This document shows, piece after piece, positions 20,871-58,180 of a stretch of DNA of 64,000 nt. The notes beneath the pieces were generated by a model. It was not told the origin of the DNA, did no database searches, and saw nothing but the letters and a program-made list of their open reading frames with translations. Position 1 is the stretch's first letter, and every line of letters begins with the position of its first letter. The DNA lies in NCBI RefSeq assembly GCF_016616885.1, contig NZ_CP067102.1, positions 1,516,501 through 1,580,500 on the forward strand, written 5' to 3'. The stretch comes from Bradyrhizobium diazoefficiens. GTDB taxonomy: Bacteria > Pseudomonadota > Alphaproteobacteria > Rhizobiales > Xanthobacteraceae. Both the position numbers and the translations under genes were made by a program.

Positions 20871-21124
20871 CACCTGGCACCTGACCCTCCCGGCGGAAGG
20901 AAGCCCAGCCAGGGGCATGTCATCGCGGTTGGTCCACCGCAATCGCGATCGCCCTTTCTTCGCTTTTGTTTCCATGTCTACGCCTGAACGCAGCCACATC
21001 TTGTGCAGCCCAACCGAGCGGCGCCACAACTTCTTCCGGAGATGCTGTTCAGCGCACGGACCACCTGGCCTCTTGATGGCTCGATCTGGCCGAAGATCGG
21101 CTGCGCCTCGATCGCCTGAACGCA

Positions 21125-21303
21125 ACGCCAGCAGCGCGACTTTCTTCCCCTGGGCTACGCCCATTCCTCGCGAGGCAAGAAAGTCGCCCCGCTGGCGTCC
21201 TCCGCTGCGCTGCGGCCCGCGGGCGGGTGCGTCGTCGATCGTCTTCGGCCTGTAGATCGCCATCGAGGCCGCGGTGGTCGCGGCTCGAAACAGCAAAGGA
21301 GAA
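21125..21303 (+). ncRNA. Structured 5' leader of DUF736 gene, copy 1
   Basis: Outer arms ACGCCAGC/GCTGGCGT (21125-21132 with 21191-21198), a 3-by-3 internal loop, and inner perfect arms GCGACTTTCTT/AAGAAAGTCGC (21136-21146 with 21177-21187), with a small apical hairpin TGGGC-TAC-GCCCA. Then come CGTCCTCCGCTGCGCTGCGG and GATCGCCATCGAGGCCGCG, as in the DUF2493 leader. The whole leader lies directly before the ribosome-binding site AAAGGAG. Confidence 0.62.
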
Positions 21304-21308
21304 GTAAC

Positions 21309-21629
21309 ATGGCTACCATCGGTTCTTTCAAGAAGGTCGGTAGCGACTTCCAGGGCGAGATCGTCACCCTCAGCCTCCAGACCAAGGGCGTCCGCATCGT
21401 GCCCGAGGCCAAAGGCAGCAACGAGAACGCCCCGAGCCACCGTGTCTTCGTCGGCCGGGCCGAGATCGGGGCCGCCTGGTCGAAGTGCTCCGAGGAGGGC
21501 CGCGACTACCTCTCGCTCAAGCTCGACGACCCCTCGTTCAACGCACCGATCTACGCGAACCTGTTCAGCGACGAGGACGGCGACGGCTTCAGCCTGATCT
21601 GGTCGCGGCCGCGCAAGACCGGCGACTGA
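21309..21629 (+). CDS. DUF736 protein, copy 1
   Basis: A 106-residue DUF736 protein beginning MATIGSFKKVGSDFQGEIVT, with the conserved segment SEEGRDYLSLKLDDPSF and the end GFSLIWSRPRKTGD. This small beta-rich family is almost confined to plasmids and ICEs of Alphaproteobacteria and its function is not established. An AAAGGAG site seven bases upstream sets the start. The protein is identical to copy 2 at 25928-26248 even though the DNA differs at a few synonymous positions, which suggests selection or gene conversion. Confidence 0.92.
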   Translation: MATIGSFKKVGSDFQGEIVTLSLQTKGVRIVPEAKGSNENAPSHRVFVGRAEIGAAWSKCSEEGRDYLSLKLDDPSFNAPIYANLFSDEDGDGFSLIWSRPRKTGD

Positions 21630-21641
21630 GGTCGCCAAGAA

Positions 21642-21667
21642 GCCCCGTCCGGTCCGCCGGGCGGGGC
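21642..21667 (+). terminator. Terminator-like hairpin after DUF736 copy 1
   Basis: Stem GCCCCGTCCGG/CCGGGCGGGGC with a four-base loop, one G-T pair, followed by TTCTC. It lies 12 bases after the stop codon. The same hairpin follows the other two copies. Confidence 0.65.
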
Positions 21668-21740
21668 TTCTCAATTCGAGGTAACTGCCAGTTCGGACGC
21701 ATTGCGGCCCGGTCGAGCCGCTCGGCTCCCCACTGGCTAT

Positions 21741-21953
21741 TCAGGCAGCCGCGCGTCTTTCGTTGGCACCCGTGCCAGACGGCCGGTCAAAAAAATTGGC
21801 CGCCTCAACTTCCAAACTGCGCGCCAGTCGATCGACGACGTCGATGGCCCGCCGCTTAGCTGTTGCGTGTATGCGCTTGAATTCGTTGGACCGGTCTTCC
21901 TTTGCCTGGAGCACTTCCAGTTCTAAGGACCTTAAAATTGTTCGGTTGTTCAA
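21741..21953 (-). pseudogene. Remnant of a qseC-like regulator
   Basis: The C-terminal part (AIDVVDRLARSLEVEAANFF, then RPSGTGA) matches the end of the QseC-like protein at 28124-28375 (GIDVVDRLARSLGVEAADLL, RPPGAGA). The N-terminal helix-turn-helix is not recognisable. Like the intact gene, it lies on the minus strand just downstream of a DUF736 copy, so DUF736 followed by qseC was an ancestral order that was duplicated. Confidence 0.65.
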
Positions 21954-22483: not shown

Positions 22484-23560
22484 TCAAGCCTGAACCGCTT
22501 GCCGCATCCTCGTTGGGTTCAATATTGCTGTATCGAACTGCGACTTCGAATCATTTGGTAGTTCGACCCTGCTTGTCCCAGCAATGGACTTATTCGCCGA
22601 GTCAAGATTATCGATGCCGGTCGCCACGACCGAGACACGGACGAGACCCTGCAGGCGTTCATCGAAAGTGGCGCCGACGATGACGTTGGCGTCCGGGTCG
22701 GCCCCTTCGCGAATGCAGCTAGCAGCTTCGTCGACCTCGAATAACGTCAGGTCCTTGCCGCCGGTGATCGAGATGATGAGGCCACTAGCGCGCTTGATCG
22801 AGGGGGCCTCGATCAATGGATTGGAGATCGCGGCCATGGCGGCGGTGAGCACGCGCTTCTCGCCAGAAGCCTCACCCCCACCCATCATGGCTTTGCCCTT
22901 CTCGCGCATGACGGAGAGAACGTCGGCAAAATCGAGATTGATCAGACCTTCTTTGACTATAAGGTCGCTGATGCAGGCCACACCCGAATAGAGCACTTGA
23001 TCAGCGATGGCGAAGGAATCGTTGAATGTGGTCTTCTCGTTGGCCACTCGGAGCAGATTCTGATTTGGGATGATCAGCAGGGTGTCAACCGCATTCAGCA
23101 GTTCCGCAATGCCCGCTTCAGCAACGCGCATACGGCGCTGGCCCTCGAAGTGGAAGGGCTTGCTGACGACGCCGACGGTGAGAATGCCAAGTTCACGCGC
23201 GATCCTGGCTATAACAGGAGCCGCCCCAGTTCCCGTACCGCCGCCCATGCCAGCGGTAACGAACACCATGTTTGCGCCGGTCAAATGATCCCGGATCGCA
23301 TGAATTGCCTCTTCGGCCGCCGCGCATCCTACTTTGGAGTTCGAGCCGGCGCCAAGCCCTTCGGTCACCTTTGTGCCCAACTGGATGAGGCGCTTGGCCT
23401 TGGACATGGTGAGCGCTTGTGCGTCGGTATTGGCGACAACGAAGTCGACGCCTTCCAACCCGGCCGCGATCATGTTGTTGACGGCATTGCCTCCGGCCCC
23501 ACCGACTCCAAACACAATAATACGCGCTTTCATCTCGCGAATGTCGCTGATGTCGGTCAC
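22484..23560 (-). CDS. ftsZ: FtsZ-family GTPase lacking the C-terminal tail
   Basis: A 358-residue tubulin-like GTPase. The nucleotide-binding glycines ([13 protein letters not shown]), the tubulin signature [12 protein letters not shown] near residue 105 and the synergy loop [11 protein letters not shown] with its catalytic aspartates are intact, so polymerisation and GTP hydrolysis should be possible. The protein ends about 40 residues after the globular domain. It lacks the long linker and the conserved peptide that binds FtsA and other partners in the main alphaproteobacterial FtsZ (usually well over 500 residues). It therefore resembles the short second FtsZ known in Sinorhizobium. It sits alone, without ftsQ or ftsA, between the two DUF736 repeats. 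Confidence 0.92.
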
Positions 23561-25511: not shown

Positions 25512-25743
25512 AGGTCCTCCATCATAGCCAGGGGCATCTCATCGCGGTTGGTCCACCGCAATCGCGATCGCCCTTTCTTCGCTTTTGTTTCCATGTCTAC
25601 GCCTGAACGCAGCCACATCTTGTGCAGCCCAACCGAGCGGCGCCACAACTTCTTCCGGAGATGCTGTTCAGCGCACGGACCACCTGGCCTCTTGATGGCT
25701 CGATCTGGCCGAAGATCGGCTGCGCCTCGATCGCCTGAACGCA

Positions 25744-25922
25744 ACGCCAGCAGCGCGACTTTCTTCCCCTGGGCTACGCCCATTCCTCGCGAGGCAAGAA
25801 AGTCGCCCCGCTGGCGTCCTCCGCTGCGCTGCGGCCCGCGGGCGGGTGCGTCGTCGATCGTCTTCGGCCTGTAGATCGCCATCGAGGCCGCGGTGGTCGC
25901 GGCTCGAAACAGCAAAGGAGAA
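25744..25922 (+). ncRNA. Structured 5' leader of DUF736 gene, copy 2
   Basis: Same long hairpin as at 21125-21303, with no base change in the stems: outer arms 25744-25751 and 25810-25817, inner arms 25755-25765 and 25796-25806. Confidence 0.6.
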
Positions 25923-25927
25923 GTAAC

Positions 25928-26248
25928 ATGGCTACCATCGGTTCTTTCAAGAAGGTCGGCAGCGACTTCCAGGGCGAGATCGTCACCCTCAGCCTCCAGA
26001 CCAAGGGCGTCCGCATCGTGCCCGAGGCCAAAGGCAGCAACGAGAACGCCCCGAGCCACCGTGTCTTCGTCGGCCGGGCCGAGATCGGGGCCGCCTGGTC
26101 GAAGTGCTCCGAGGAGGGCCGCGACTACCTCTCGCTCAAGCTCGACGATCCCTCGTTCAACGCACCGATCTACGCCAACCTGTTCAGCGACGAGGACGGC
26201 GACGGCTTCAGCCTGATCTGGTCGCGGCCGCGCAAGACCGGCGACTGA
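25928..26248 (+). CDS. DUF736 protein, copy 2
   Basis: A 106-residue DUF736 protein identical in amino-acid sequence to copy 1 at 21309-21629. The ribosome-binding site AAAGGAG, leader and terminator are also repeated. Its own 3' neighbour is the RES-Xre toxin-antitoxin pair, on the opposite strand. Both copies appear expressible. Confidence 0.92.
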   Translation: MATIGSFKKVGSDFQGEIVTLSLQTKGVRIVPEAKGSNENAPSHRVFVGRAEIGAAWSKCSEEGRDYLSLKLDDPSFNAPIYANLFSDEDGDGFSLIWSRPRKTGD

Positions 26249-26260
26249 GGTCGCCAAGAA

Positions 26261-26286
26261 GCCCCGCCCGGTCCGCCGGGCGGGGC
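26261..26286 (+). terminator. Terminator-like hairpin after DUF736 copy 2
   Basis: Perfect stem GCCCCGCCCGG/CCGGGCGGGGC with loop TCCG, followed by GTTTCTCT. Confidence 0.7.
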
Positions 26287-26484
26287 GTTTCTCTCACCGG
26301 GCATCAAAGAATAGTCGCGAGGCCACTGCGCTTCAGCGCCTCACGCTGATCGACTTTCGCGGTCTTGTGCGTGAACGTCTGTGGATCGTCGGCATCCTTC
26401 CATCTTGCGGGAAAGCACCGTGCCGGTTCGATTCCTCCGACGCCTCTCGTCGCGGAAGACTACCGATCTGTGGTCGTCTCTGAG

Positions 26485-27432: not shown

Positions 27433-27822
27433 AATTTGCAAGAACTCCGCAAAGGCCCGCCTGCAAGGAGCCGGAGTGGGACGACCAGGCGGCCCCGGCC
27501 TTCCCGGCACGAGCTTAGGCAGGCAGGGCATTGCATTGCGGATTGTTCCGGGCAATCGAATCCACCACTTCCTTCGCCATTGTTGTTTTCTACACGCTGA
27601 CCGCAGCGACATCTTGCGCAGCCCAACCGAGAGGCACCACAACTTCTTCCGGGGATGCTGTTCAGCGCACGGACCACCTGGCCTCTTGATGGCTCGATCT
27701 GGCCGAAGAGCGGCTGCGCCTCGATCGCCTGAACGCAACGCCAGCGGTTCAACTTTCCTCCCCTGGTCTACGCCCATTCCTCGCGAGGCAAGAAAGTCGC
27801 CCCGCTGGCGTCCTCCGCTGCG

Positions 27823-28013
27823 TACCGCGTCTTCGTCGGCCGGGCCGAGATCGGGGCCGCCTGGTCGAAGCGCTCCGAGGAGGGCCGCGACTATCTCTCG
27901 CTCAAGCACGACAACCCCTCGTTCAACGCACCGATCTACGCGAACCTGTTCAACGACGAGGACGGCGACGGCTTCAGCCTGTCTGGTCGCGGCCGCGCAA
28001 GAACGGCGACTGA
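27823..28013 (+). pseudogene. DUF736 gene, copy 3, broken
   Basis: The reading RVFVGRAEIGAAWSKRSEEG, then RDYLSLKHDNPSFNAPIYAN matches DUF736 from about residue 40 on. The start codon and N-terminus are gone, and one base is missing in the AGCCTGATCTGG motif near 27980, which shifts the end. The upstream hairpin partly remains but has lost pairing (GTTCAACTTTCCT against AAGAAAGTCGC). Confidence 0.8.
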
Positions 28014-28025
28014 GGTCGCCAAAAA

Positions 28026-28051
28026 GCCCCGCCCGGTCCGCCGGGCGGGGC
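28026..28051 (+). terminator. Terminator-like hairpin after DUF736 copy 3
   Basis: Stem GCCCCGCCCGG/CCGGGCGGGGC kept intact, followed by TTCTC. Confidence 0.6.
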
Positions 28052-28123
28052 TTCTCAATCTAGCGCCCGTCTGGCAGCACGGACCGTGTCAACACAGATT
28101 CCAGCCGCTCGGCCGCTCATCGG

Positions 28124-28375
28124 CTATTCAGTCTGTCCGCGCGTCTTTTTCTTGGCGCCTGCGCCTGGCGGCCGTGTCAACAGGTCTGCTGCTTCGACTC
28201 CCAAACTGCGCGCCAGCCGGTCGACAACGTCGATGCCCGCCGCATAGACGCTCCGTTCGAGTGCACTGATATAGGTGCGGTCAATTTCTGCTCGATGTGC
28301 CAATTCCTCCTGCGACAAGCCGCGAGCTTGTCGTAGCTTTCGCAAATTGATTGCCAGTACCCCGCGTATATCCAT
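28124..28375 (-). CDS. qseC: QseC-like Xre-family regulator, module A
   Basis: An 83-residue protein made almost entirely of an Xre/Cro helix-turn-helix (LRKLRQARGLSQEELAHRAE, then DRTYISALERSVYAAG). It is divergently transcribed from a short DUF2285 gene, exactly as qseC and qseM are on ICEMlSym of R7A, where QseC binds between the two genes and sets qseM expression. A perfect inverted repeat CGCGTAT-N4-ATACGCG (28363-28380) overlaps its start codon. The direct repeats GAGTATT at 28398 and 28411 are other possible binding sites. A second copy of the arrangement is at 33786-34037. Confidence 0.75.
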   Translation of the reverse strand: MDIRGVLAINLRKLRQARGLSQEELAHRAEIDRTYISALERSVYAAGIDVVDRLARSLGVEAADLLTRPPGAGAKKKTRGQTE

Positions 28376-28521
28376 ACGCGAGACGGCACGTCCTTGAAGA
28401 GTATTTCACCACGGAGTATTCTCGACAAAACGTTCGCGCGGAAGCCTACGACCAAATTTTTACGCTTCTGCTCCTTCCGGCCGGCATGTTAGAATTTGTC
28501 AAATCTGAGGCGTGGAGTTTC

Positions 28522-28794
28522 ATGAGGAAGCCGCCGCTCGATCCCGACGTCGCCGACGCTGCCCCTACCGATCAAGCTCTGACGGTTTATGACGAGCAGC
28601 ACATCGTGACGTACACGCGCCTTTTGCAAGCCGACAGCGAAGGGGCCGACTGGCGGGAAGTCGCACGAATAGTGTTGCATATCGATCCGGAGCGCGAGCC
28701 TGATCGTGCGCGAAATGCATACCTGTCTCATCTTAAGCGCGCTAAGTGGGCTACTGAACAGGGACGTTTCTTGCGCGGTGCCAGGTCAAATTAG
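28522..28794 (+). CDS. qseM: QseM-like DUF2285 antiactivator, module A
   Basis: A 90-residue single-domain DUF2285 protein (DPDVADAAP, TVYDEQHIVTYTRLLQADSE, GADWREVARIVLHIDPERE). DUF2285 is a helix-turn-helix variant. In R7A, QseM uses it to bind and block both TraR and FseA, preventing excision and transfer in most cells. The second copy, at 34201-34473, has the same length and about four fifths identical residues. The ATG at 28522 was chosen over upstream in-frame starts because it gives the same N-terminus as that copy. It faces the qseC gene and precedes fseA. Confidence 0.78.
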   Translation: MRKPPLDPDVADAAPTDQALTVYDEQHIVTYTRLLQADSEGADWREVARIVLHIDPEREPDRARNAYLSHLKRAKWATEQGRFLRGARSN

Positions 28795-28862
28795 GAAAAT
28801 CTCACCGGTGAAGCGTTTGTCAAGAATACGATCTTCTTCTGCTCGTTGGTGGTCACTTTAGA

Positions 28863-28876
28863 GCACTGCGTGGTGC
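28863..28876 (+). promoter_or_regulatory. Conserved near-palindrome upstream of fseA, module A
   Basis: GCACTGCGTGGTGC, 12 of 14 positions symmetric. It sits in the same place as the perfect palindrome at 34541-34554 in module B, with the flank GGTGCCAAA...TTCCTACAACC conserved. It is a candidate TraR or other activator site for fseA. Confidence 0.4.
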
Positions 28877-28960
28877 CAAAGTAAGGACTTCCTACAACCC
28901 AATCGATCAGAATTATTGCGGCGCAATCCTTGTTATCCGACTGGACAAAGGGCGTAAGCA

Positions 28961-29155
28961 ATGCCGACATTCGACTGGCGGTCGCCGGATTCGTACAAGA
29001 GCCTACAGGACGCTGAAATAACCGACATCGCCTGGGAATTTCTTCGCCGAAACAAAGACTACCAACGCGACTACGAAGAGACTGTGAGGAACAGCCCGGA
29101 CGGCGAAGTATCCCCGGAGTTCAGGAGGAGGTGGGGCATCTGCTTTCGCCCATGA
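28961..29155 (+). CDS. fseA: FseA N-terminal part (DUF6499), module A
   Basis: A 64-residue frame starting MPTFDWRSPDSYKSLQDAEI, the DUF6499 transcriptional-regulator-like domain, and ending RRRWGICFRP before TGA. It corresponds to msi172 of R7A, where it is joined by a +1 ribosomal frameshift to the next frame (msi171) to make FseA, the activator of excision. Here too the +1 frame continues directly after the same point (DPQISFEEQVVIWAPEVLP), so the pair encodes one protein of about 257 residues. The short product made without frameshifting is probably inactive. Confidence 0.78.
   Translation: MPTFDWRSPDSYKSLQDAEITDIAWEFLRRNKDYQRDYEETVRNSPDGEVSPEFRRRWGICFRP
29141..29155 (+). other. Programmed +1 frameshift site in fseA, module A
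   Basis: The zero-frame codons are TGC TTT CGC CCA TGA. A +1 slip of the phenylalanine tRNA from TTT to TTC at 29144-29147 gives TTC GCC CAT GAC and continues into the DUF2285 frame. The string ATCTGCTTTCGCCCATGA is identical in module B. That the event occurs is known for R7A. The exact slip codon here is inferred. Confidence 0.6.
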
Positions 29156-29228
29156 CCCGCAGATATCCTTCGAGGAACAAGTCGTCATTTGGGCGCCTGA
29201 GGTTCTGCCGACGGTCGTTCCAATCGCG

Positions 29229-29735
29229 GTGATCGCGTCGACGGTCAGTGGGGACAGCTCTCCTCAGCTACTGCTCGATCTTGCGGCTGGCCGGGCGCGG
29301 CGTGCCTCCGATGGCTGGCACGCTGTGCTACGGATAGGCGTCGTAGAGCATCGAGTCTGGCTGAAGGATCTGCCAGCCGCCGGCGCCAATTACGCAGTTC
29401 AATTGGCATTCGACCGCGATTTCGACGCGCGCGCCCTTGCAGCGCAGCGGCTGTGGCGCGCGATGAATGAACGCGCTGTCGGTCCCGCCTCTCACGGTTT
29501 GTCAAAACTGAGATGCGAACGGCTGTGCGCCGCCATTCAGGCGCTCGACGCCCATGACGCCGGCGGCACGTATCGGATCATTGCCGAAGCTCTATTCGGC
29601 AAGAAGCGCATCCCCGATCGCGCCTGGAAAACGCACGATCTGCGCAATCGTACAATTCGCCTCGTGCAGAGCGGCGTCGCATTAATGCGAGGCGGCTATC
29701 GCGAATTGCTGCGCCCCAAGCGCAAGGACAAATAG
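29229..29735 (+). CDS. fseA: FseA C-terminal part (DUF2285), module A
   Basis: The frame is open from the slip site near 29145. The position given is the first GTG in it. The encoded DUF2285 domain contains DGWHAVLRIGVVEHRVWLKD and the helix-turn-helix end GKKRIPDRAWKTHDLRNRTI, GGYRELLRPKRK. It is the counterpart of msi171, which alone lacks a good ribosome-binding site and must be expressed by frameshifting from the upstream frame. Joined to the DUF6499 part, it would bind DNA and activate excisionase and transfer genes. Unlike module B, no rdfS gene follows: the next genes are an AbiEi/AbiEii pair. Confidence 0.78.
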   Translation: MIASTVSGDSSPQLLLDLAAGRARRASDGWHAVLRIGVVEHRVWLKDLPAAGANYAVQLAFDRDFDARALAAQRLWRAMNERAVGPASHGLSKLRCERLCAAIQALDAHDAGGTYRIIAEALFGKKRIPDRAWKTHDLRNRTIRLVQSGVALMRGGYRELLRPKRKDK

Positions 29736-29953
29736 CCGTCTCGATCTTCGCTGAGGCGAACGACAAAATCGCGGAAGACGCAACTACAGGAGCCTTAGAG
29801 ATCTGGCCGCGCGTTGGCATGACGGGCCGGGCCCTTTGGGGGCTTTTGAGCGCCAATTGACCTAAGCAACTGAATATACTGCAGAATTATGTATAAATCT
29901 AACGCTTGTAGTTTGTCAGAAGTCAGCCTATGTTTCTGACAGTGGAGTAAACC

Positions 29954-30547
29954 ATGGCCCCCCTGAGCATCAGGATTCTGGAAGCAACCAAAGCATTGCC
30001 CGAAGGCGCACCGATCGCTGCCAAGGCACTTTTGCATCTTGGAAAGCGTGCTGCCGTCGATCAGGCCCTTTCGCGTCTTGCCGAGCGAGGAAGACTTCTG
30101 CGCGCGAGACGAGGGATATATTTGCGCCCGGTTGAAAGCCGTTTCGGAGTTAGAGCTCCATCAGTTGAAAAAGTCATCGAGGAAACCAAGGTTCGCAGCG
30201 GCGAAACGATCGTTTCCAGCGGCGCGGCGGCGGCTAATCATCTTGGTTTGACGAGGCAAGTACCTGTCCGTCAGGTTTATCTGACCTCTGGTCCTTCCCG
30301 CAGACTCCGTCTTGGCAAGCAAGTCGTGGAGTTCAAGCATGCACCGAGTTGGCAGCTTACCCTGGCGAACCGACGTGCAGGTGAGGTTGTGCGTGCGCTT
30401 GCCTGGATGGGCCCAGAGACAGCAGAACGAGCATTGAGGTCCGTCAGTCAGAAATTGACCCCGACCGAAGTGAACGAGTTGAAGTCCGCTGCTTCTTCCT
30501 TTCCGACTTGGCTTGCCAAGCCGGTAAGCGAACTCCGTGTCGGATAG
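29954..30547 (+). CDS. abiEi: AbiEi-type antitoxin (DUF6088 family)
   Basis: A 197-residue protein with a winged-helix N-terminus (ALSRLAERGRLLRARRGIYL) and the AbiEi-type second domain (ETIVSSGAAAANHLGLTRQV, then QVYLTSGPSRRLRLGKQVVE). It acts as the antitoxin and autorepressor of a type IV toxin-antitoxin system. Its end overlaps the start of the AbiEii-type toxin by 11 bases, so the two are translated together. Upstream, 29740-29950 is gene-free and should hold the promoter. The pair looks intact, unlike the fragments at 22.0 and 24.2 kb. Confidence 0.85.
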   Translation: MAPLSIRILEATKALPEGAPIAAKALLHLGKRAAVDQALSRLAERGRLLRARRGIYLRPVESRFGVRAPSVEKVIEETKVRSGETIVSSGAAAANHLGLTRQVPVRQVYLTSGPSRRLRLGKQVVEFKHAPSWQLTLANRRAGEVVRALAWMGPETAERALRSVSQKLTPTEVNELKSAASSFPTWLAKPVSELRVG

Positions 30548-31553
30548 ATTTCTAACCCTCTCTGACGCCGAGCGCCAAGAGGCGCTCGGCGTTGCTGCGT
30601 CCAACTCAGGTCGCCCGGCACATCTTCTCGAAAAGGATGTCTGGGTCGTCTGGTGCCTGAACGCGCTCTTCTCCTCGCCTTTAGGCGAACATCTCGTCTT
30701 CAAAGGCGGAACATCGCTATCGAAGGCATATGGTGCGATCCGTCGCTTCTCGGAAGATGTCGACCTCACCTACGATATTCGGACGATAGCTCCGGATCTC
30801 GTGAACACAAGGGACGATAATCCGGTCCCTCAAACCCGTAGTCAGAGCAAGAAGTGGAGCACGCAGGCACGAGAGCGCCTCCCGGTCTGGGTGAAGGAGA
30901 AGGCCTTATCGGTCATCAAGCAGCGACTGGAAGAAGACAAGCTCAGTGCAACCGCTGAGGCCCAGGATGACAAGATTTTCGTAAGGTACGCTCCATTGGA
31001 GACCGGCAGTGGCTATGTGAGTCCCGCCGTTATGCTCGAATTCGGAGCGCGGTCGACGGGCGAGCCGAGCGAGCTCCACGATGTGGTTTGCGACGCCGCC
31101 GAATATCTCGACACCCTCGAATTTCCCACGGCCAAGCCCAAAACCATGAAAGCGGAGCGCACTTTCTGGGAAAAGGCCACGGCGATCCACGTCTTTTGCG
31201 TCCAAGGCAAACTGAAAGGCGAGCGCTTTGCCCGCCATTGGTATGACCTTGTAAGACTAGACGATGCAGGGATTGCCGAGGTGGCGTTGAAAGACAGAAA
31301 GCTTGCCGAAATCGTCGCAGAACACAAGACTTGGTTCTTTTTAGAAAAGGATCCCACGGGAGCGGTCATCGATTATCATAAAGCCGTCAATGGATCCTTG
31401 AAGCTGGTCCCCGAGGGACAATCGCGAACGGTCTTGGAGCAAGACTACAAACGCATGACTGACGACGGGCTTATGCTCGATGAGCCCGAAACATTCGATA
31501 AGTTGATGACACGGTGCTTGGACCTCGAGAATAGAGCGAACAAGTCCACCTGA
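30537..31553 (+). CDS. abiEii: AbiEii-type nucleotidyltransferase toxin
   Basis: A 338-residue protein with the AbiEii/AbiGii nucleotidyltransferase signature LVFKGGTSLSKAYGAI, then RFSEDVDLTYD, where the GTS and paired aspartates form the metal and nucleotide site. The C-terminal block TFWEKATAIHVFC and ARHWYDLVRL also matches the family. These toxins modify tRNA or similar targets and give abortive infection or element stabilisation. The start is a GTG at 30537 inside the antitoxin gene. The pair lies between the two qseC-qseM-fseA modules and may act as an addiction system for the element. Confidence 0.85.
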   Translation: MSDRFLTLSDAERQEALGVAASNSGRPAHLLEKDVWVVWCLNALFSSPLGEHLVFKGGTSLSKAYGAIRRFSEDVDLTYDIRTIAPDLVNTRDDNPVPQTRSQSKKWSTQARERLPVWVKEKALSVIKQRLEEDKLSATAEAQDDKIFVRYAPLETGSGYVSPAVMLEFGARSTGEPSELHDVVCDAAEYLDTLEFPTAKPKTMKAERTFWEKATAIHVFCVQGKLKGERFARHWYDLVRLDDAGIAEVALKDRKLAEIVAEHKTWFFLEKDPTGAVIDYHKAVNGSLKLVPEGQSRTVLEQDYKRMTDDGLMLDEPETFDKLMTRCLDLENRANKST

Positions 31554-31763
31554 TACGTTCGCGATCCCGCCGGGGAGCGCGCTCAAATCGACAGCTAGGC
31601 GCCAGCAGCGTGTCGAGAATGGACCAGGCGCCATAGGCGGCGCCGGGTGTCTGCAGCACCTCCCGAATGCCGGCATCCTCGATATCGGAGACTTCAAGGT
31701 CGACGGTCGGGCCGGCGATGGGGCTCGCCGCTGCAGGATCGAAGCTATGAAGAAATGTCCGTG

Positions 31764-32984
31764 TCAAAGCGCTAGCGCTCGCTTGAGATCGTCGTGCTCG
31801 AAAGCGCTGGCCATGCGATTGATCTCGGCCGCGCGGGCGCCGACAGCTTTGGCCGTGTCGCGCCAGGTCGCGGTCGCTGTCGCGACTTCCTTAATGATCG
31901 GGCGGGCCTGCTGCAGCGTAAGACCAAAATACTCCGACGCGGCCTCAAGTAGGTCGAGCGAGCAGGTGCCTTCGTCGAGGTCGATGTTCGTCGTCAGCAC
32001 CCGCGCCTTCACATCGGTAGGCACGGGATTGAGATCGTAAGCCGGAGAGAGCGACCATCCCGCCTTTCCCAACCACAGGAAACCGTGGTTGCGTAGATGA
32101 TCATCGACATTGGAGATCAGCACATTGAAGACGACACGCCTGTAGAGGGCATGGGCATCCGTCTTTCCTTGCGCACCATGTTGCGCGAGAGCGTCGACAA
32201 TCTCCGGGTAGCTGCCGCGCTCGCCGTCTTTGGCGCCCATCATCGCCATGGCGGACAGAAACGGGACGCGGACGGCGTCATTGCGATCGAAGCGGCGCGA
32301 CAGCATGACGGCCTTGCCGGCCACCTCGATCAGTTCGTGTTGCGGGGTGGCGATGCCGGCCTTGCTGGCGAGCCGCAGCGCAATCCCCTCCCAGGTCTCC
32401 ATGCTGTAGTCGTCGGTTTCCTTTGGAAACTTGGCGATCGAGAGATTGCCGTGTTGGTCGATCAGCGAGGCCTTCGGCCGCCCGCCACCGAGGGAGGAGC
32501 CCGGCGCGAAGATGAGCTGGAGATCTTCGTCCGTTTCCTCGTCGCGGAGAATGCGCTCGGTGATCTACAGCAGCTGCCCGAGTTCGATGAGGGCCGGCAC
32601 ACCGGCGCGGGTCGGCGCCTGGAAAGTTTCGTCGCCGACTCAGCGGAAGCGAAGTGCGCCAAGTCGCGTTTCGTCGGCAACGCCGAGCAAATAGTCGCTT
32701 TCTGCAGCGTGCGAACGGCGCGGCCTTCACGGTCGGCGAGGCGGCGTTCGGCGCGCTGCATGAGGCGGCGACCTCGAGCCAAAAGTCGCCAGGCCGGCAG
32801 GAGGAGCAAAGGCGCCGCGCGTCAGGGCGAGGGCGGGTTCCAGGGAGAACCGGTCCGAATCATCAAGCCACGCGCCATCGTACTCGAAGAGGATGGTCTC
32901 CGAGCCTCGAACACGGTTGCTCCTCGCCAGTCCGATGCGGCGCGTGCGGCCGCCGAGATCGATATGCACCTCGAAGTCAGCCAT
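31764..32984 (-). pseudogene. Disrupted hipA-type kinase gene
   Basis: The C-terminal half is open (31764-32402) and carries HipA motifs (VFNVLISNVDDHLRNHGFLW, then SLSPAYDLNPVP). The N-terminal piece (32727-32984, start MADFEVHIDLGG) is in another frame. The middle reads YLLGVADETRLGALRFR, stop, VGDETFQAPTRAG, LGQLL, stop, ITERILRDEETDED. So at least two frameshifts and two nonsense codons (about 32636 and 32570) separate the ends. No full kinase can be made. The gene overlaps hipB by eight bases, as in active hipBA operons. Confidence 0.8.
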
Positions 32985-33312
32985 CGCGTGAGGCTCCGGT
33001 CCTGCGTTTGAGGTGGATATGCTTCGGCAGCTCGGCGCTGGCGAGCGCCTGGCCTACGCTGTCGTTGCTGATGTCGGCGACCTTGATCAGACCGTCGAGC
33101 AGGCCGAGCGCCTGGAGAACGCCGGCATAGATCCCGATGCTGACACTGGTGTCGCCGGCTTCAACTCTCTGCAGCGTCGAGCGGGACGTGAAGGCGCGCT
33201 CGGCGACGACAGACATCGGCAGCCGCCGGCGCCGCCGGGCATCGTGGATGTCCGCGCCGAGCTTGCGCAGGGCCCGTCGAACGGCGGCCGGGGGATTGTG
33301 GGGGGTAGGCAT
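32977..33312 (-). CDS. HipB-like antitoxin, Xre family
   Basis: A 111-residue protein with an Xre-type helix-turn-helix (ADIHDARRRRRLPMSVVAER, then FTSRSTLQRVEAGDTSVSIG) and a C-terminal extension (SAELPKHIHLKRR) like HipB antitoxins that accompany HipA kinases. It normally binds and neutralises HipA and represses the operon. Its partner is a pseudogene, so the antitoxin is now alone. The divergent upstream region 33313-33400 should contain its promoter. Confidence 0.75.
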   Translation of the reverse strand: MPTPHNPPAAVRRALRKLGADIHDARRRRRLPMSVVAERAFTSRSTLQRVEAGDTSVSIGIYAGVLQALGLLDGLIKVADISNDSVGQALASAELPKHIHLKRRTGASRDG

Positions 33313-33439
33313 TTGTAACCTTCATACTACACATTCGGCGAATATGTAGCACGAAGATTACAAAACTCCTAGCCCCCAGCAGGGCGGTACCCTGTATTAG
33401 AGACGGCTAAGCGTTCGCCCGAGTCCCCGAAGAATGCGC

Positions 33440-33799
33440 GCAAGACCCCGCACAGTGAGGCGGCGATCGAAACTTATGCGGCGAGCGTCGTCGCCAAGGT
33501 ATCTTGCAGAATCTGCCGGTCGAACCGGGGTTGGACAGAGAAGGGCGGCTACAGGGTTTGCAGACGGCTTGCCCGGCTTCTGAGAGCGAAGCGGAAGGAG
33601 ATCAACAAGACTGACCCGCTGCATCATCGACACGGCGAACGATCCGCACGAAATCAGCCTAGACGAGAACGTCACGCGGGAAAATGTGCATCCCGCTGAT
33701 CAGTTCGTGGCCTTCAAGAAGCTGGCGGAAGAGCGCGGTTTTGGTGTGGAAGAAATCGCCGCCCGCTTGGGCTCTGCCGACCCGATCATTTCCGTTTAG
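33440..33799 (+). pseudogene. ParB-family gene remnant
   Basis: Pieces in different frames line up with a ParB domain: GILQNLPVEPGLDREGRL near 33510, GGYRVCRRLARLLRAKRKEI near 33545, then RCIIDTANDPHEISLDENVT and VHPADQFVAFKKLAEERGFG up to a stop at 33799. The normal box with AGGRRL is damaged and the C-terminus is missing. It differs from the long parB at 9.8 kb, so it comes from a second, lost maintenance module. It overlaps the end of qseC module B. Confidence 0.65.
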
Positions 33800-34037
33800 C
33801 CGGCTTTGATCGGTCGCTTCGCGCGTCTTCGTCAGGAACTACCAATTCAACGTGACTGACACCTAACGTGCTGGCGAGCTCAAAAAGAGTTACGACAGTT
33901 GGGTTACGACGGCCGCGCTCCAGGTCACTGATATATTGCTGAGTGAAGCCGGACATTTCGGCGAATTTCTCCTGCGTGAAGCGCTTTTGCTTCCGCAGTC
34001 TTGCGAAATTCCGGCCGACCAGCTTGCGCATGTCCAT
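33786..34037 (-). CDS. qseC: QseC-like Xre-family regulator, module B
   Basis: An 83-residue Xre-family repressor (RNFARLRKQKRFTQEKFAEM, then GFTQQYISDLERGRRNPTVV) with a short acidic and lysine-rich tail. It is the same length as the module A protein but much diverged in sequence, so the two probably recognise different operators. It is divergently transcribed from the QseM-like gene at 34201. A long inverted repeat (34057-34088) begins 20 bases upstream of its start and is the likely binding site. In R7A the matching protein sets the switch between transfer-off and transfer-on cells. Confidence 0.78.
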   Translation of the reverse strand: MDMRKLVGRNFARLRKQKRFTQEKFAEMSGFTQQYISDLERGRRNPTVVTLFELASTLGVSHVELVVPDEDARSDRSKPAKRK

Positions 34038-34056
34038 CGGCGCAAGTTGCGTCTTT

Positions 34057-34088
34057 ACATACTATGAGGTTTATCTCCTATAGTATGT
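34057..34088 (+). promoter_or_regulatory. Inverted-repeat operator between qseC and qseM, module B
   Basis: Perfect nine-base arms ACATACTAT and ATAGTATGT flank a centre GAGGTTTATCTCCT that is itself nearly symmetric. It lies between the divergent start codons and is AT-rich compared with its surroundings. It is probably one double-sized or two overlapping QseC sites. No similar repeat occurs in module A. Confidence 0.55.
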
Positions 34089-34200
34089 TTTTTCGAGCGG
34101 CTCGCTGGTCGGTTAGGTCCCAATGGGGCTAAAATGAGACGTCGGCACGATCTCGGCCTTCTAGGGAGATTAGAATCATTCGCTGTTTGTTGGGGTGGTC

Positions 34201-34473
34201 ATGACAAAACCGCAGCTAGATCCTGACGTCGTGGATGTCGCGCCGAACGAGCTGGCGCTGACCGCCTATGACGAACAGCATGTTGTCACATACATTCGCC
34301 TTTTGCAGGCGGAGGGTCAGGGAGCGGACTGGCGGGAGGTTGCTCGAATCGTTTTGCACATCGACCCGGAGCGAGAACCGGACCGTGCGCGGACTGCATA
34401 TCAGAGTCATCTTGCGCGCGCCAAATGGGTGACCGAGCAGGGGCGCCTCTTACGCGGCACCGGCTCAAAATAG
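34201..34473 (+). CDS. qseM: QseM-like DUF2285 antiactivator, module B
   Basis: A 90-residue DUF2285 protein (LDPDVVDVAPNELALTAYDE, then GADWREVARIVLHIDPEREP). It is nearly collinear with module A, the identical core being GADWREVARIVLHIDPEREP. By analogy with R7A it binds TraR and FseA and keeps transfer silent. ATG 34201 was chosen over a GTG at 34195 because it gives the same length and N-terminus as the other copy. It is followed after 164 bases by fseA module B. Confidence 0.78.
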   Translation: MTKPQLDPDVVDVAPNELALTAYDEQHVVTYIRLLQAEGQGADWREVARIVLHIDPEREPDRARTAYQSHLARAKWVTEQGRLLRGTGSK

Positions 34474-34540
34474 AAGAAAATCGCCAGCTAACTTTTGTGG
34501 CCAAAACAATTTTCTCCCGCTAACCGGCGGTCATTCTCAT

Positions 34541-34554
34541 GCACCACGTGGTGC
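34541..34554 (+). promoter_or_regulatory. Perfect palindrome upstream of fseA, module B
   Basis: GCACCACGTGGTGC, 14 bases fully symmetric, 84 bases before the fseA start. The flank GTGCCAAACTAGAGGCTTCC and a small ATTGC-GCC-GCAAT dyad nearer the gene are shared with module A. It could be the TraR box that drives fseA, though it does not look like the candidate box near traI. Confidence 0.45.
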
Positions 34555-34637
34555 CAAACTAGAGGCTTCCTACAACCGCTTCGTTCATAACTATTGCGCC
34601 GCAATCCTTGTTGGCTGCGTGCAATGGGACGGAAGCA

Positions 34638-34832
34638 ATGCCTGAATTCGACTGGCGATCGCCAGATTCGTTCAAGAGCCTGGAGAATGCTGAGATCACT
34701 CACATCGCCTGGGAAGGCCTTCGTATGAACGTGGACTATCAACGCGACTACGAAGCGATGATTGCGAATAGCCCAGATGGCGAAGTGACCGAGGAATTCA
34801 GGAGGAGGTGGGGTATCTGCTTTCGCCCATGA
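34638..34832 (+). CDS. fseA: FseA N-terminal part (DUF6499), module B
   Basis: A 64-residue DUF6499 frame (MPEFDWRSPDSFKSLENAEI, ending RRRWGICFRP) of the same length and ending as in module A. ATG 34638 was chosen because it matches the copy at 28961. The TGA at 34830 closes the frame, but the +1 frame continues with DPQKSSKEQVIFWTPEVLAS into DUF2285, so full-length FseA (about 256 residues) requires frameshifting. This copy sits directly upstream of rdfS, the main target of FseA in R7A. Confidence 0.8.
   Translation: MPEFDWRSPDSFKSLENAEITHIAWEGLRMNVDYQRDYEAMIANSPDGEVTEEFRRRWGICFRP
34818..34832 (+). other. Programmed +1 frameshift site in fseA, module B
   Basis: TGC TTT CGC CCA TGA in the zero frame. 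Slipping at TTT (34821-34823) to TTC yields TTC GCC CAT GAT. The 18 bases up to and including the stop are the same as in module A, while sequence on both sides has diverged. That conservation is what a functional recoding signal predicts. Confidence 0.62.
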
Positions 34833-34899
34833 TCCGCAAAAGTCCTCCAAAGAACAGGTCATCTTTTGGACACCTGAGGTTCTAGCGTCCGTTGTCCCC

Positions 34900-35409
34900 G
34901 TGACAACCGCGCCGCCTGTTTCTCACGAAGCGGCATCTCAGCCGCTGTTCGACTTTGCTGCCGGACAGGTATGCCGCGCCGCCGATGGTTGGCATGCGGT
35001 GCTGTGTATCGGCTCGGTTGAGCATCGCATCTGGTCGAAACAGCCGCTGACCCCAGGCGCTCACTATGCAGCCGAGTTACCGCTCGACAGCAGTTTCGAG
35101 GCGCGGGCGCACGCTGCCACGCGGCTATGGCGCGCGATGAATGGGCGCGCGCAAGGACCTGCCTTCCAACGCCTGTCGAAACAGCGGCGCGAAAGATTAT
35201 GCGCAGCCCTTCGCGCACTCGCCGCGTATTTCGCCGGCGCGACCTATCGCAGCATCGCAGAGGCTCTGTTCGGCGAAAAGCGCATCCCCGATCGTGTCTG
35301 GAAAACGCACGATTTGCGCAGCCGAACCATCCGTCTCGTCCAAAGCGGCTTCGCATTCGTTCGCGGAGGCTATCGCGAATTGCTCCGTGCCAAGCGCAAG
35401 GACAAATAG
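34900..35409 (+). CDS. fseA: FseA C-terminal part (DUF2285), module B
   Basis: The +1 frame is open from the slip site at 34821. The position given is the first GTG in it. The DUF2285 region has DGWHAVLCIGSVEHRIWSKQ and the end GEKRIPDRVWKTHDLRSRTI, GGYRELLRAKRKDK, nearly the same as module A in the last 60 residues. It provides the DNA-binding and QseM-sensitive part of FseA. Downstream lie an inverted repeat at 35420-35442 and then rdfS, so this copy is in the classical position of an ICE activation gene. Confidence 0.8.
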   Translation: MTTAPPVSHEAASQPLFDFAAGQVCRAADGWHAVLCIGSVEHRIWSKQPLTPGAHYAAELPLDSSFEARAHAATRLWRAMNGRAQGPAFQRLSKQRRERLCAALRALAAYFAGATYRSIAEALFGEKRIPDRVWKTHDLRSRTIRLVQSGFAFVRGGYRELLRAKRKDK

Positions 35410-35419
35410 CGCTCCAGCC

Positions 35420-35442
35420 GGGGGTATCGAAAACATACCCCC
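35420..35442 (+). promoter_or_regulatory. Inverted repeat between fseA and rdfS
   Basis: Perfect eight-base arms GGGGGTAT and ATACCCCC with a seven-base loop, 11 bases after the fseA stop and 100 bases before rdfS. It lacks a T tract, so it could be an FseA or RdfS operator as well as a weak terminator. Nothing similar follows module A. Confidence 0.45.
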
Positions 35443-35541
35443 CAATCATCGGCATCCCCATTCGCGGGCCTTCTCCGCGATCGTGGCCGTCGACGCGCCG
35501 CTGTTCGCACCGGCGCTCCAGATGGTCACGGAGCTTCTCAA

Positions 35542-35823
35542 ATGTCCGATCCGAACGCCGATCCGCCGCCTCGATACCTCCGTACATCCGAAGCCGCACG
35601 CTTTTTGAGTTTGTCTGGCCGCACGCTGGAAAAACACCGCACGTATGGCACCGGTCCCGAATATCACAAGATCGGCGGCCGCGTGGTCTATTCGGTTGCG
35701 GACCTGATGGCGTGGGCCAAACTTGGCAAAAAGAAATCGACGTCCGATCCCGGCAAGGGGACCGTGCTGCCTGCCAAAAAACATCCGACCCTGCGCCCGT
35801 ATGCGGGCCAGGAACGCCGTTGA
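35542..35823 (+). CDS. rdfS: RdfS-like excisionase (recombination directionality factor)
   Basis: A 93-residue protein with an AlpA/excisionase winged helix (YLRTSEAARFLSLSGRTLEK, then YHKIGGRVVYSVADLMAWAK) and a basic, proline-containing tail. By position (after fseA, before repA-like and traF genes) and type it matches RdfS of ICEMlSym, which turns the integrase towards excision and also helps activate the conjugation operon. The integrase it would act with is outside the window. It is the first gene of the rdfS-repA-traF operon. Confidence 0.8.
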   Translation: MSDPNADPPPRYLRTSEAARFLSLSGRTLEKHRTYGTGPEYHKIGGRVVYSVADLMAWAKLGKKKSTSDPGKGTVLPAKKHPTLRPYAGQERR

Positions 35824-39392: not shown

Positions 39393-40354
39393 TCACTGGG
39401 AGCGCCAGTTCCACGGCAGCAACTCGTCGAGACGCTTGACAGGATATCCGTCGACCATCCGCTGGAGCACGTCGCGCAGGTAGACGGAGGGTTCGACGTC
39501 GTTGAGCTTACAGGTCGCAATCAGCGAGCAGGCGACAGCCCAACGATGCCCGCCGCCGTCGCTGCCGGCGAACAGGTGGTTCTTGCGGCCGAGCGCCACA
39601 GGCCTGATCGCGCGTTCGACCGGATTGGTGTCGAGCTCAATGCGGCCATCATGCAGGAATCGCGTCGGCCCCTTCCAGCGCGAGAGCGCGTAAGGGATCG
39701 CTTCGGCAAGCGTGCTGTGGCCAGAGACGAGGGGAAGCTGCGTCTCCAGCCAGGAATGCAATGCTTGAACGATTGGCTTGTCGTGGGCGGAGCGTCGTTC
39801 GAAGGCTCTCTCAAGCTGCTTTCGGAGGACGATTCCTTAGCACTAGTACTAACGACCGGGCGGGTGGAGGGGTGAAGATGCGCGCGCCAGTCGATTTCAA
39901 GTTCGCCGGCATCCAACCGGTCGCGCCATTTGCGCAGCGCGTACGGCGACAGGGACAGTGCAGCGGCATGTTCGCGTACACCCATTCCGCTCCAGTTCAT
40001 CGCGTCGACATGCATTGCCCAGAACGCTTGCAAACCGCGATCACGCACACGCGTGATGATCGAGAAGCGCTGCCGCAGTGTCATTCTCGGTTCTGCTTTC
40101 TGTCCTTCGCGGCGCAATTCCGTCTGATATTTCGTGAGCTTGCGTGCAGCTTCCTCGCCAGCAAGAGCCTCAGCCAACGCACGAACATCCCCTGGTCTAA
40201 GCGATGAGGACGGCAATACGCCCTCTGCGAAACGCGCTGCGCTGCCAGGCTTCGATGTGGATCGACCACCATTCACGTCTGGCTTTGTTCTGGAAATGTT
40301 TTGGGCCCACCGGAGATTCTCCAATGCAGCAGAGAACCCGAAATGGAACGACAA
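39393..40354 (-). pseudogene. IS66-family element remnant, internally deleted
   Basis: The minus strand first gives an accessory-protein-like part (from ATG 40084: MTLRQRFSIITRVRDRGLQA, LSLSPYALRKWRDRLDAGEL) and then, after a change of frame near 39760, the C-terminal end of an IS66 TnpC transposase (DTNPVERAIRPVALGRKNHL, then ATCKLNDVEPSVYLRDVLQR, PWNW). The tnpB gene and most of tnpC are deleted. Ends of the element were not found. It separates the relaxase gene from its usual upstream partners. Confidence 0.78.
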
Positions 40355-55874: not shown

Positions 55875-56504
55875 CTACGCAGCTTTCAGCGCCGGCTCCC
55901 AGAGCACAGGTGAGCGGAGTGTTCCGGTGTCGCGGACCCGCGATAGTGCGGCCGCTGAAATCTCGAGATAGCCAGCAACGGCCTGGGTGTTTCCCAATGT
56001 CCTTGCCTGGCCCGCCCGTCGCAGGGGCCACCCGGCGCGTCGCAAGATGCGCTCCATGCGAGCGTCGGTCACCGTGATGATTTCTGTTAGCCGTCTCGAA
56101 AGGCCGAATTCGATCATGCCAGCGAAGAGCTCGTACGTCGCGCTGGTCAGCCCGCGCATCGTTCCGCGCGCGCCAGCGTCAACATCCAGCGCGAAACGGC
56201 TGCTTTCCCAGACCGAATGATCCGCGTTAAAGGGCTGTCCATCGAGCAGCACAGGGAAGGTATCGCGCAACATCGTCGGTCCGGTAGATGGAAGCAGCCG
56301 TACGCAGCCCTGAACGCTATAATTGCTCGATCGCTGAATCAGGTAGACAGGACCGAGTGCATCGAATTCATCGACTTCCATGTCCCCGCTGGTCTGAACG
56401 TCCCATGCGAGTCGTTCCTTGAAAACCCTGTATCTAAGTCTGTGCATCTCACAAAGGTCTTCAGCAAAGGCTCCATAGAACTCCTGTGTAATCATCTGCA
56501 TCAT
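55875..56504 (-). CDS. traI: Acyl-homoserine-lactone synthase (LuxI/TraI family)
   Basis: A 209-residue LuxI-family enzyme that makes an acyl-homoserine lactone from S-adenosylmethionine and an acyl donor. The conserved N-terminal arginine and aromatic residues are in MHRLRYRVFKERLAWDV, the acidic triad in DMEVDEFDALGP, and the core in GCVRLLPSTGPTMLRDTFPV, then VWESSRFALDV. ATG 56504 was chosen because GGAGG lies eight bases before it. A longer frame upstream is not supported. The acyl chain cannot be told from sequence. Bradyrhizobial relatives can use branched or aryl groups. It is part of the traI-traR pair that controls transfer. Confidence 0.88.
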   Translation of the reverse strand: MMQMITQEFYGAFAEDLCEMHRLRYRVFKERLAWDVQTSGDMEVDEFDALGPVYLIQRSSNYSVQGCVRLLPSTGPTMLRDTFPVLLDGQPFNADHSVWESSRFALDVDAGARGTMRGLTSATYELFAGMIEFGLSRRLTEIITVTDARMERILRRAGWPLRRAGQARTLGNTQAVAGYLEISAAALSRVRDTGTLRSPVLWEPALKAA

Positions 56505-56563
56505 CGATTGTGCCTCCAAAGCCGCGGGGCGGGTATTGAAGGGGAATTGTTGGGGATGTGCAG

Positions 56564-56581
56564 CCTCCTCAGTTAAGGAGG
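56564..56581 (-). promoter_or_regulatory. LuxR-box-like palindrome upstream of traI
   Basis: CCTCCT-N6-AGGAGG, an 18-base dyad 60 bases before the traI start. Size and CT-N12-AG symmetry fit boxes bound by LuxR/TraR dimers. It is a candidate TraR site giving positive feedback on traI. Confidence 0.45.
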
Positions 56582-56797
56582 TGTGATACCGACGTACGCA
56601 TCTGGCAAAAAGCCGGATTGGCAGGGCCGAGCCGCGCCATCGGATTAAATCCTCTTCGCCCGCAGCGTCGCTGAACATCCTCAGAGCTCTATCGACGCGT
56701 TTTTTGCTGTCGGCTAGACGAGTCTTGACTGTCGGCCTATACGGGTGGCTAGGACTCGGGAGCGAGACTTAGAGCCAAGGGTACATTCTATCGAGGA

Positions 56798-57302: not shown

Positions 57303-58025
57303 TTAGGTCTTTCGACCAGCGGCGACAAAGCGCGCAACTGCTTGGATCCTCGATCGAACGCCCAGTTTGGTCCTGGCGTTGTCCAGGTGATATGCGACCG
57401 TATGGTGAGAGATGCCCATGATACGGCCAATCTCCCAGGAAGACTTGCCCTGAGCGGCCCAATTTAGGCACTCGATCTCCCGCCGAGAAAGCGAGACACC
57501 GTCAATCTGATCGCGGGCACGCAGCTTACGTTCTGCGTGTGCATGGAAAACCGTTGCCATAAAAGGAAGTATACGAGCATGCCGGCGTACGGAGCGTCCG
57601 AAGGCAGCAGCTCGTTCGTTGGCGGCAAATGTGACTGCTGCAATAGCAACGCCGCTCTCGTGAATCGGAACGGTGAAGCCACAGCGAATGCCAAATCGCG
57701 CGGCCTCCTCGAAAAGCTGACGAGCGGGCTCCGAATGTGCTTCGGGCCCGAGGCCAAGGCCCCACTCAAAGGCCTTGTCTCGCCGAACGGATTGAATAAT
57801 TACAGGATCAAACCGATGGTACTGCTGCTCGACGTAATGCGAAGTCCAACTTGACGGATAGGTCGAAATCAGAAGCGGCGGCGCGCCTGGTCTGGAAGGC
57901 AAAACGAGGTAGGCGAAACAAGATAGATCGAGCGCGGCTGCAGTTTCAGCCATCCCGAGCCTAAGGTCATCGAGGTCGGTACTTTCAATCAGTTGATCAA
58001 CGAAAGCTTGGAAAACGTGACGCAT
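57303..58025 (-). CDS. traR: LuxR-family quorum-sensing regulator (TraR type)
   Basis: A 240-residue LuxR protein. It has an autoinducer-binding domain (about residues 10-160, with the conserved W-Y-D pattern in SWTSHYVEQQYHRFDPVIIQ and the G-F-T-V-P-I-H-E strand) and a LuxR helix-turn-helix (LSRREIECLNWAAQGKSSWE, then MGISHHTVAYHLDNARTKLG). It senses the TraI product and activates transfer genes. QseM is the expected antiactivator. ATG 58025 has AAGGA seven bases upstream, and longer starts are not supported. Symmetric TGAATC-AAAA-GATTCA (58063-58078) lies just upstream. Confidence 0.87.
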   Translation of the reverse strand: MRHVFQAFVDQLIESTDLDDLRLGMAETAAALDLSCFAYLVLPSRPGAPPLLISTYPSSWTSHYVEQQYHRFDPVIIQSVRRDKAFEWGLGLGPEAHSEPARQLFEEAARFGIRCGFTVPIHESGVAIAAVTFAANERAAAFGRSVRRHARILPFMATVFHAHAERKLRARDQIDGVSLSRREIECLNWAAQGKSSWEIGRIMGISHHTVAYHLDNARTKLGVRSRIQAVARFVAAGRKT

Positions 58026-58062
58026 TGTCCTTCTCGCTGCAGGCACTCGTACGACTGTCGTC

Positions 58063-58078
58063 TGAATCAAAAGATTCA
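58063..58078 (-). promoter_or_regulatory. Inverted repeat upstream of traR
   Basis: TGAATC-AAAA-GATTCA, fully symmetric, ending 38 bases before the traR start codon. Candidate operator in the traR promoter. Confidence 0.4.
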
Positions 58079-58180
58079 CATGTCAGGTTCATACGCATCG
58101 TCACTTCGTGGCGCGCGCGGAGAACGCCTGTGACGTCTTTGCGCGAACCAAGGTGAAACCTGATTGCTTGCCTCCAATGA

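Follow-up and report, generated by a model that had tools for sequence, protein, structure and literature searches.

The closest described counterpart of the system treated here is that of ICEMlSymR7A in Mesorhizobium japonicum, which comprises divergent qseC and qseM genes, a DUF2285 antiactivator (QseM), the activator FseA composed of DUF6499 and DUF2285 parts joined by +1 frameshifting, rdfS as the target, and traR and traI carried on the element. In R7A FseA, the substitutions R37A and D210A each abolish activation, R37A brings QseM binding to near zero, and F34A reduces QseM binding, as given in the available parts of PMC10359603. The symbiosis elements (ICESyms) of Cicer-lineage Mesorhizobium are described, in the available parts of PMC8627217, as carrying at least two paired qseM-qseC copies and multiple qseC variants, for which the authors suggest distinct inputs, and chimaeric quorum-sensing loci in which identity breaks off at a copy of qseC. 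The present analysis concerns 64,000 nucleotides of Bradyrhizobium diazoefficiens DNA (assembly GCF_016616885.1, contig NZ_CP067102.1, positions 1,516,501 to 1,580,500; hereafter the window), the backbone of which is that of an ICEMlSym-like conjugative element (ArdC, DUF736, rdfS, RPA, DUF2840, SLT, relaxase, TraG, traI, traR). Two qseC-qseM-fseA modules, A and B, of different lineage and QseC type reside on this element, and the whole is best explained, with a probability of about 0.52, if module B works as the transfer switch and module A serves as an additional brake with an address of its own.

Both modules (A, 28124-29735; B, 33786-35409) are judged from their sequence to be real and intact, each consisting of qseM, a divergently oriented qseC, and an fseA split over two frames that a +1 frameshift site would join (Table 1). 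The initial annotation, made from the letters alone, had proposed this gene content and these coordinates, and matches to the Pfam models HTH_3, PF20109, and PF10074 and to R7A QseM (7uqt) bear it out; the QseM-A open reading frame gave no Pfam match of its own. Across the whole 8.09-Mb genome, two PF20109 and two PF10074 matches were found (E ≤ 0.001), all within modules A and B. The frameshift site, predicted from sequence as TTTCGCCCATGA, lies at 29144-29155 in fseA-A and at 34821-34832 in fseA-B; these two modules belong to the 66 of 93 that carry it. When up to three mismatches are tolerated, the core of intergenic region A matches one place in the window; that of region B occurs once. 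As annotated, rdfS adjoins module B only, and no further copy was found in the window. The decayed Xre end noted beside DUF736 proved to be the 3′ end of a qseC, with 50% identity to QseC-A over 48 amino acids (aa); its eight best tblastn matches were all to QseC of type 0a (see below), and it matched no Pfam model.

Table 1. Coordinates, in the window, of the two modules and of other features discussed in the text
Feature	Position	Strand	Remarks
qseC-A, type 0a Xre-family regulator, 83 aa	28124..28375	-	HTH_3, E 3.8e-14
Intergenic region A	28376..28521		core GAGTATTTCACCACGGAGTATTCTC at 28399-28423, common to type 0a modules
qseM-A, antiactivator, 90 aa	28522..28794	+	matches R7A QseM 7uqt, E 2.9e-16
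Palindrome upstream of fseA-A	28863..28876		GCACTGCGTGGTGC, two mismatches from GCACCACGTGGTGC
fseA-A	28961..29735	+	DUF6499 (PF20109) 28961-29155; DUF2285 (PF10074) 29229-29735
qseC-B, type 2, 83 aa	33786..34037	-	HTH_3 match; typing
Intergenic region B	34038..34200		core CATACTATGAGGTTTATCTCCTATAGTATG at 34058-34087
qseM-B, antiactivator, 90 aa	34201..34473	+	matches R7A QseM 7uqt, E 2.7e-16
Perfect palindrome GCACCACGTGGTGC	34541..34554		centre 90 bp upstream of fseA-B
fseA-B	34638..35409	+	DUF6499 (PF20109) 34638-34832; DUF2285 (PF10074) 34900-35409
Putative FseA-box-like inverted hexamers, ATCGAA-N16-ATCGGC	35426..35453	+	upstream of rdfS, by alignment; spacing as in the available parts of PMC10359603
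rdfS	35542..35823	+	R7A RdfS 8dgl, E 8.4e-9; after module B
qseC fragment (third remnant)	21741..21953	-	adjoins one of two identical DUF736 genes
AbiEi/AbiEii-like pair	29954..31553	+	occupies the place where rdfS follows fseA in canonical modules
traI (N-acyl-homoserine lactone synthase)	55875..56678	-	PF00765, E 1.3e-48
traR (LuxR family)	57303..58079	-	PF03472 and PF00196

Alignment of the two modules agreed with the earlier impression that QseM and FseA are close between the copies and that QseC and the intergenic regions are different. Identical residues number 69 of 89 in QseM and 177 of 257 in FseA but merely 21 of 66 in QseC, and the qseC-qseM intergenic regions aligned with a score of 14, no better than shuffled sequences (mean 15.0, largest 22). 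A quick tree was built from 90 QseM+FseA rows, 5 broken or doubtful ones of the 95 available having been dropped; in it, module A falls inside a 12-row clade (support 95) and module B inside a 7-row clade (support 100). Forcing A, B, and their counterparts in the related genome G260 into one clade cost 85 log-likelihood units (p 0.0137 in the approximately unbiased test, the constrained group having been named after the tree was seen). Because A and B lie in separate supported clades and a joint clade is rejected, the comparison supports the meeting of two lineages, and the suggestion in the initial annotation that elements had merged stands in so far as two lineages with unrelated QseC/intergenic pairs appear to have been brought together. 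A recent in-place or tandem duplication within the element was rejected on the same tree, since A and B are not closest relatives.

To place these modules in the genus, PF20109 was surveyed and found in 196 of 265 genomes, of which 115 with at least two matches, chosen by eye from the 265-genome table, were searched again. Stretches were fetched around single matches (100 stretches) and in 13 longer pieces, mostly around close pairs, giving a total of 123 modules from 79 genomes; qseC, qseM, fseA, and rdfS stand together at near-constant distances in 72 of the first 103. The survey for two-module islands suggested in the initial annotation revealed at least ten genomes in which two PF20109 matches lie no more than 20 kb apart on the same contig (G000, G260, G239, G073, G089, G078, G217, G006, G050, and G214). 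In six of these ten (G000, G260, G239, G073, G078, and G050), neither module lacks qseC, qseM, or a full fseA, and the two QseC types differ in five of the six.

The QseC proteins encoded at the same position were found to fall into discrete types, namely 0a (17 modules), 0b (14), 1 (17), 2 (17), 3 (18), and 4 (19), with two rarer types of 2 and 1 modules and 18 modules not typed. Clustering at 55% identity gave five classes, one of which was split by start motifs into 0a, 0b, and a rarer type, and three modules were assigned by hand. Intergenic regions shorter than 300 bp, from 87 modules, were compared by blastn, and every same-type pair matched (629/629) but no different-type pair did (0/3112); types 0a and 0b compared with each other gave no match in 153. 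On the QseM+FseA tree, the type changes 28 times over the 71 canonical modules, compared with 42 to 48 times in five shuffled values, and 37 times over all 90 rows, compared with a shuffled mean of 61, and even if only well-supported branches are counted, each of the six main types requires 3 to 7 changes. The changes being fewer than in shuffled data, yet many, the types partly follow the tree but switch often.

The edges of the exchanged unit could be located from pairwise homology, the pairs sharing modules and thus not being independent. In different-type pairs (732 pairs, each ≥82% identical across ≥400 bp), homology begins near the qseM start codon, at a median of +14 bp (10-90% range, -2 to +65); at the other edge (556 pairs), it ends a median of 58.5 bp past the qseC stop (10-90% range, 168 to 6). 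Homology continues into qseC in 214 of 218 same-type pairs. The clearest exchange is seen between module B and G260, where homology halts at 33772 and restarts at 34199, a type 2 cassette standing in place of one of type 0b. On these comparisons, qseC and the qseC-qseM intergenic region form at least six types that are swapped as one block with an edge close to the qseM start codon, and the intergenic cores GAGTATTTCACCACGGAGTATTCTC and CATACTATGAGGTTTATCTCCTATAGTATG are candidate operators.

Inspection of the FseA polypeptides revealed that FseA-A contains the motif AWEFLRRN and an Asp, corresponding to Phe34, Arg37, and Asp210 in R7A numbering, whereas FseA-B contains AWEGLRMN and an Ala (Gly34, Met37, and Ala210); both residues of the Arg37-Asp210 contact are thus kept in FseA-A and missing in FseA-B. 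When aligned with RovC (6xz5), to which the matches are weak (E 0.0023 and 0.45), the FseA-A Asp stands opposite RovC Asp193 (numbering of that paper), and FseA-B has Ala there. Judged by its domains, frameshift site, and position, FseA-B is still an FseA despite this departure from the R7A protein. Of the 121 modules with a DUF2285 domain, 11 have Met37, all with Ala210, and 104 have Arg37, accompanied by Asp210 in 101, by Arg in 1, and by a gap in 2; 6 further modules had no scorable motif. The 7 Met37 modules in the tree form one clade (4 fetched later were not placed), so the Met37/Ala210 group probably reflects one event or a few and does not provide independent evidence. A QseM residue marking the Met37 modules was sought and none was found. 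QseM-A and QseM-B are the same at the published contact residues 18, 19, 22, 26, 28-31, 65, 66, 68, and 71, with differences at 23, 27, 67, and 72; position 31 is Gln in both and Asp in R7A. The putative box upstream of rdfS shows three changes from GCCGAA-N16-TTCGGC, the form present in 9 of 10 other Met37 modules, and the bare FseA-box pattern is not above chance (11 found, 10.95 expected, one mismatch allowed). Compared with G260, RdfS and the C-terminal part of FseA-B are 84% identical and RPA is 95% identical.

G260 has both modules, and its A stretch (with part of DUF736) is 96.3% identical to that of the window over 1920 bp, QseC-A being 98.8% identical. There, module A directly adjoins YAcAr and DUF736 genes; the window has only the qseC fragment at that place, and its module A sits beyond ftsZ beside another DUF736 remnant. 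Inactivating changes of module A in relatives, which the initial annotation had raised, were looked for in this one relative, and module A was found free of stops and frameshifts in the window and in G260. Site counts between the two A modules show purifying selection on qseC-A and qseM-A, with 10 synonymous and 5 non-synonymous changes (p 0.0008) and a ratio of non-synonymous to synonymous rates (dN/dS) of 0.20 for qseM-A. For fseA-A, 7 synonymous and 9 non-synonymous changes were counted (p 0.067), and all four stretches together gave p 0.0003. When module B was compared with that of G260, dN/dS was 0.21 for qseM and 0.10 for rdfS, and the two parts of fseA gave 0.00 and 0.26.

A palindrome centred ∼90 bp upstream of fseA was scored in the 93 of 123 modules in which a WG-CF frameshift region is present and the spacer measures 120-210 bp. 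GCACCACGTGGTGC is exact in 65 of these and has one mismatch in 11; exactly two mismatches are found only in the A modules of the window and of G260, and 3 to 7 mismatches in 15, of which 10 lie outside the main clade of the tree and 5 are absent from that tree. With up to three mismatches allowed, GCACCACGTGGTGC occurs six times in the window, near the chance expectation of 4.16, and the palindrome of module A is therefore recognized by its position. Within 220 bp upstream of traI, the palindrome was absent at all 30 loci scanned (30 of 34 traI matches, from 19 of 20 genomes searched), and it is thus probably not a TraR box. Five near relatives (L208-L212) have a different palindrome, TCCTTAACTGAGGA, ∼61 bp ahead of traI as a candidate TraR site; at the traI of the window, it did not rank in the top three palindromes. 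No rdfS follows module A in the window or in G260.

These data can be explained by the following scheme. Merger, and rearrangement that may have taken place at the DUF736 repeats, would have brought the modules together. In module B, taken as the working transfer switch, QseC-B would act on its own operators to set qseM-B, possibly in a bistable manner, and FseA-B, made via +1 frameshifting, would turn on rdfS. In module A, QseC-A would act on its own operators to set qseM-A, and QseM-A would add to the pool blocking TraR and/or FseA, a separately addressed extra brake being the most likely role of this module. FseA-A would contribute little or act in trans because it has no adjoining rdfS and the palindrome upstream of it is damaged. 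Several points weigh against this scheme. FseA-A retains the canonical Phe34, Arg37, and Asp210 and an intact frameshift site and may accordingly be a working activator and not baggage. Of the 10 genomes found with two modules, 4 (G217, G214, G089, and G006) have at least one in visible decay, both fseA genes being cut short in G217, so module A may only be younger. The constraint on module A was derived from one other genome, 31 substitutions, and a simple one-sided site-count test, and recent exchange between the window genome and G260 is possible. Finally, we know of no protein that binds the palindrome damaged upstream of fseA-A.

Some of these points would fit better with module A being a passing relic of a merged or recombined element that has lost rdfS and the fseA control site and is headed for the same decay as the qseC fragment at 21741, a possibility that we consider real but clearly the less probable of the two. 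The missing rdfS and the damaged palindrome in both genomes, the weak constraint on fseA-A, the decayed modules in the four genomes named above, and the DUF736 copies with a gene order unlike that of G260 would all be expected of a relic; the purifying selection on qseC-A and qseM-A, the type 0a intergenic core kept in module A, and the freedom of the module from stops and frameshifts in both genomes would not. The cross-acting arrangement put forward in the initial annotation, in which both FseA proteins would activate the single rdfS and both QseM proteins would block both, leaving a dosage effect only, appears improbable. In its favour, one TraR, one TraI, and one RdfS were found in the window, and QseM-A equals QseM-B at most contact residues, so that the modules may not be insulated. 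Free cross-talk is opposed by the differences between FseA-A and FseA-B at residues 34, 37, and 210, which matter in R7A for QseM binding and/or activation according to the available parts of PMC10359603, and the rdfS box of the window departs from that of its nearest relatives. A separately addressed brake alongside a working switch is retained as the preferred explanation.

Several neighbouring features of the element were also observed. The DUF736 region is present twice (20907-21675 and 25526-26294), with an identity of 94-100% by stretch and two identical DUF736 genes, and a third, partial copy lies in the region 27520-28059 (27781-27981, 71% over 72 residues); gene order around these repeats differs between the window and G260. 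An extra ftsZ-like gene (22484-23560, minus strand) has a 96% identical product in the matching G260 region. A HipA-like gene with a helix-turn-helix gene (31764-33312) is located, like the AbiEi/AbiEii-like pair, between modules A and B, and an IS66-family transposase end (39393-39761, minus strand) lies between the lytic transglycosylase and relaxase genes. No integrase-family match was seen inside the window, the nearest in the genome being at C1:1446010 and C1:1685249, and nodA is found at C1:1970825, 390 kb away.

A more speculative idea, which we regard as rather unlikely, is that qseC and its operator region serve as an immunity-type determinant of conjugative elements. At least six mutually foreign types would replace one another at a single position, and elements living in the same cell would not respond to one another's switch. 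An element with two modules would then carry two addresses, and a rebuilt FseA interface in the Met37/Ala210 group could likewise close the activator/antiactivator pair to outsiders. In this chosen sample, genomes did not significantly avoid carrying modules of the same type (4 of 47 pairs of the same type, 7.0 expected; 29 genomes, p 0.14), and among canonical modules the avoidance was suggestive but again not significant (2 of 35 pairs, 5.4 expected; 24 genomes, p 0.073). To our knowledge, no immunity phenotype has been described for qseC cassettes. Transfer of symbiosis elements determines which soil bacteria become legume partners, and if switch types are exchangeable and mutually foreign, coexistence, merger, and silencing of elements could be predicted from sequence. 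The type idea can be tested directly on this element, whose two modules differ in type, and the Met37/Ala210 group represents a natural double change in the residue pair found essential by R7A mutagenesis.

In comparison with ICEMlSymR7A, the element in the window carries two complete modules, its QseC proteins belong to exchangeable types, and FseA-B lacks Arg37 and Asp210. In most related modules examined, qseC, qseM, fseA, and rdfS are contiguous, whereas traI2 lies upstream of fseA in R7A, as given in the available parts of PMC5882170. Two qseM-qseC pairs on one element are a likeness to the Cicer ICESyms, and doubled pairs are, on the available parts of PMC8627217, already known in Mesorhizobium; by contrast, fseA is also doubled here, a second copy not being reported in those parts, and both edges of the exchanged unit have been located. 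As far as the open-access literature surveyed shows, three findings are new: the doubling of fseA, the discrete types of qseC and intergenic region together with the limits mapped for their exchange, and the Met37/Ala210 group. No title or abstract there dealt with Bradyrhizobium qse modules or with the exchange of qseC-operator types. A further parallel is offered by lambdoid temperate phages, in whose immunity regions a repressor is swapped together with its own operators as one block between otherwise related elements. Here, same-type avoidance is not significant, and the block differs in consisting of qseC with its intergenic region and in being carried on conjugative elements.

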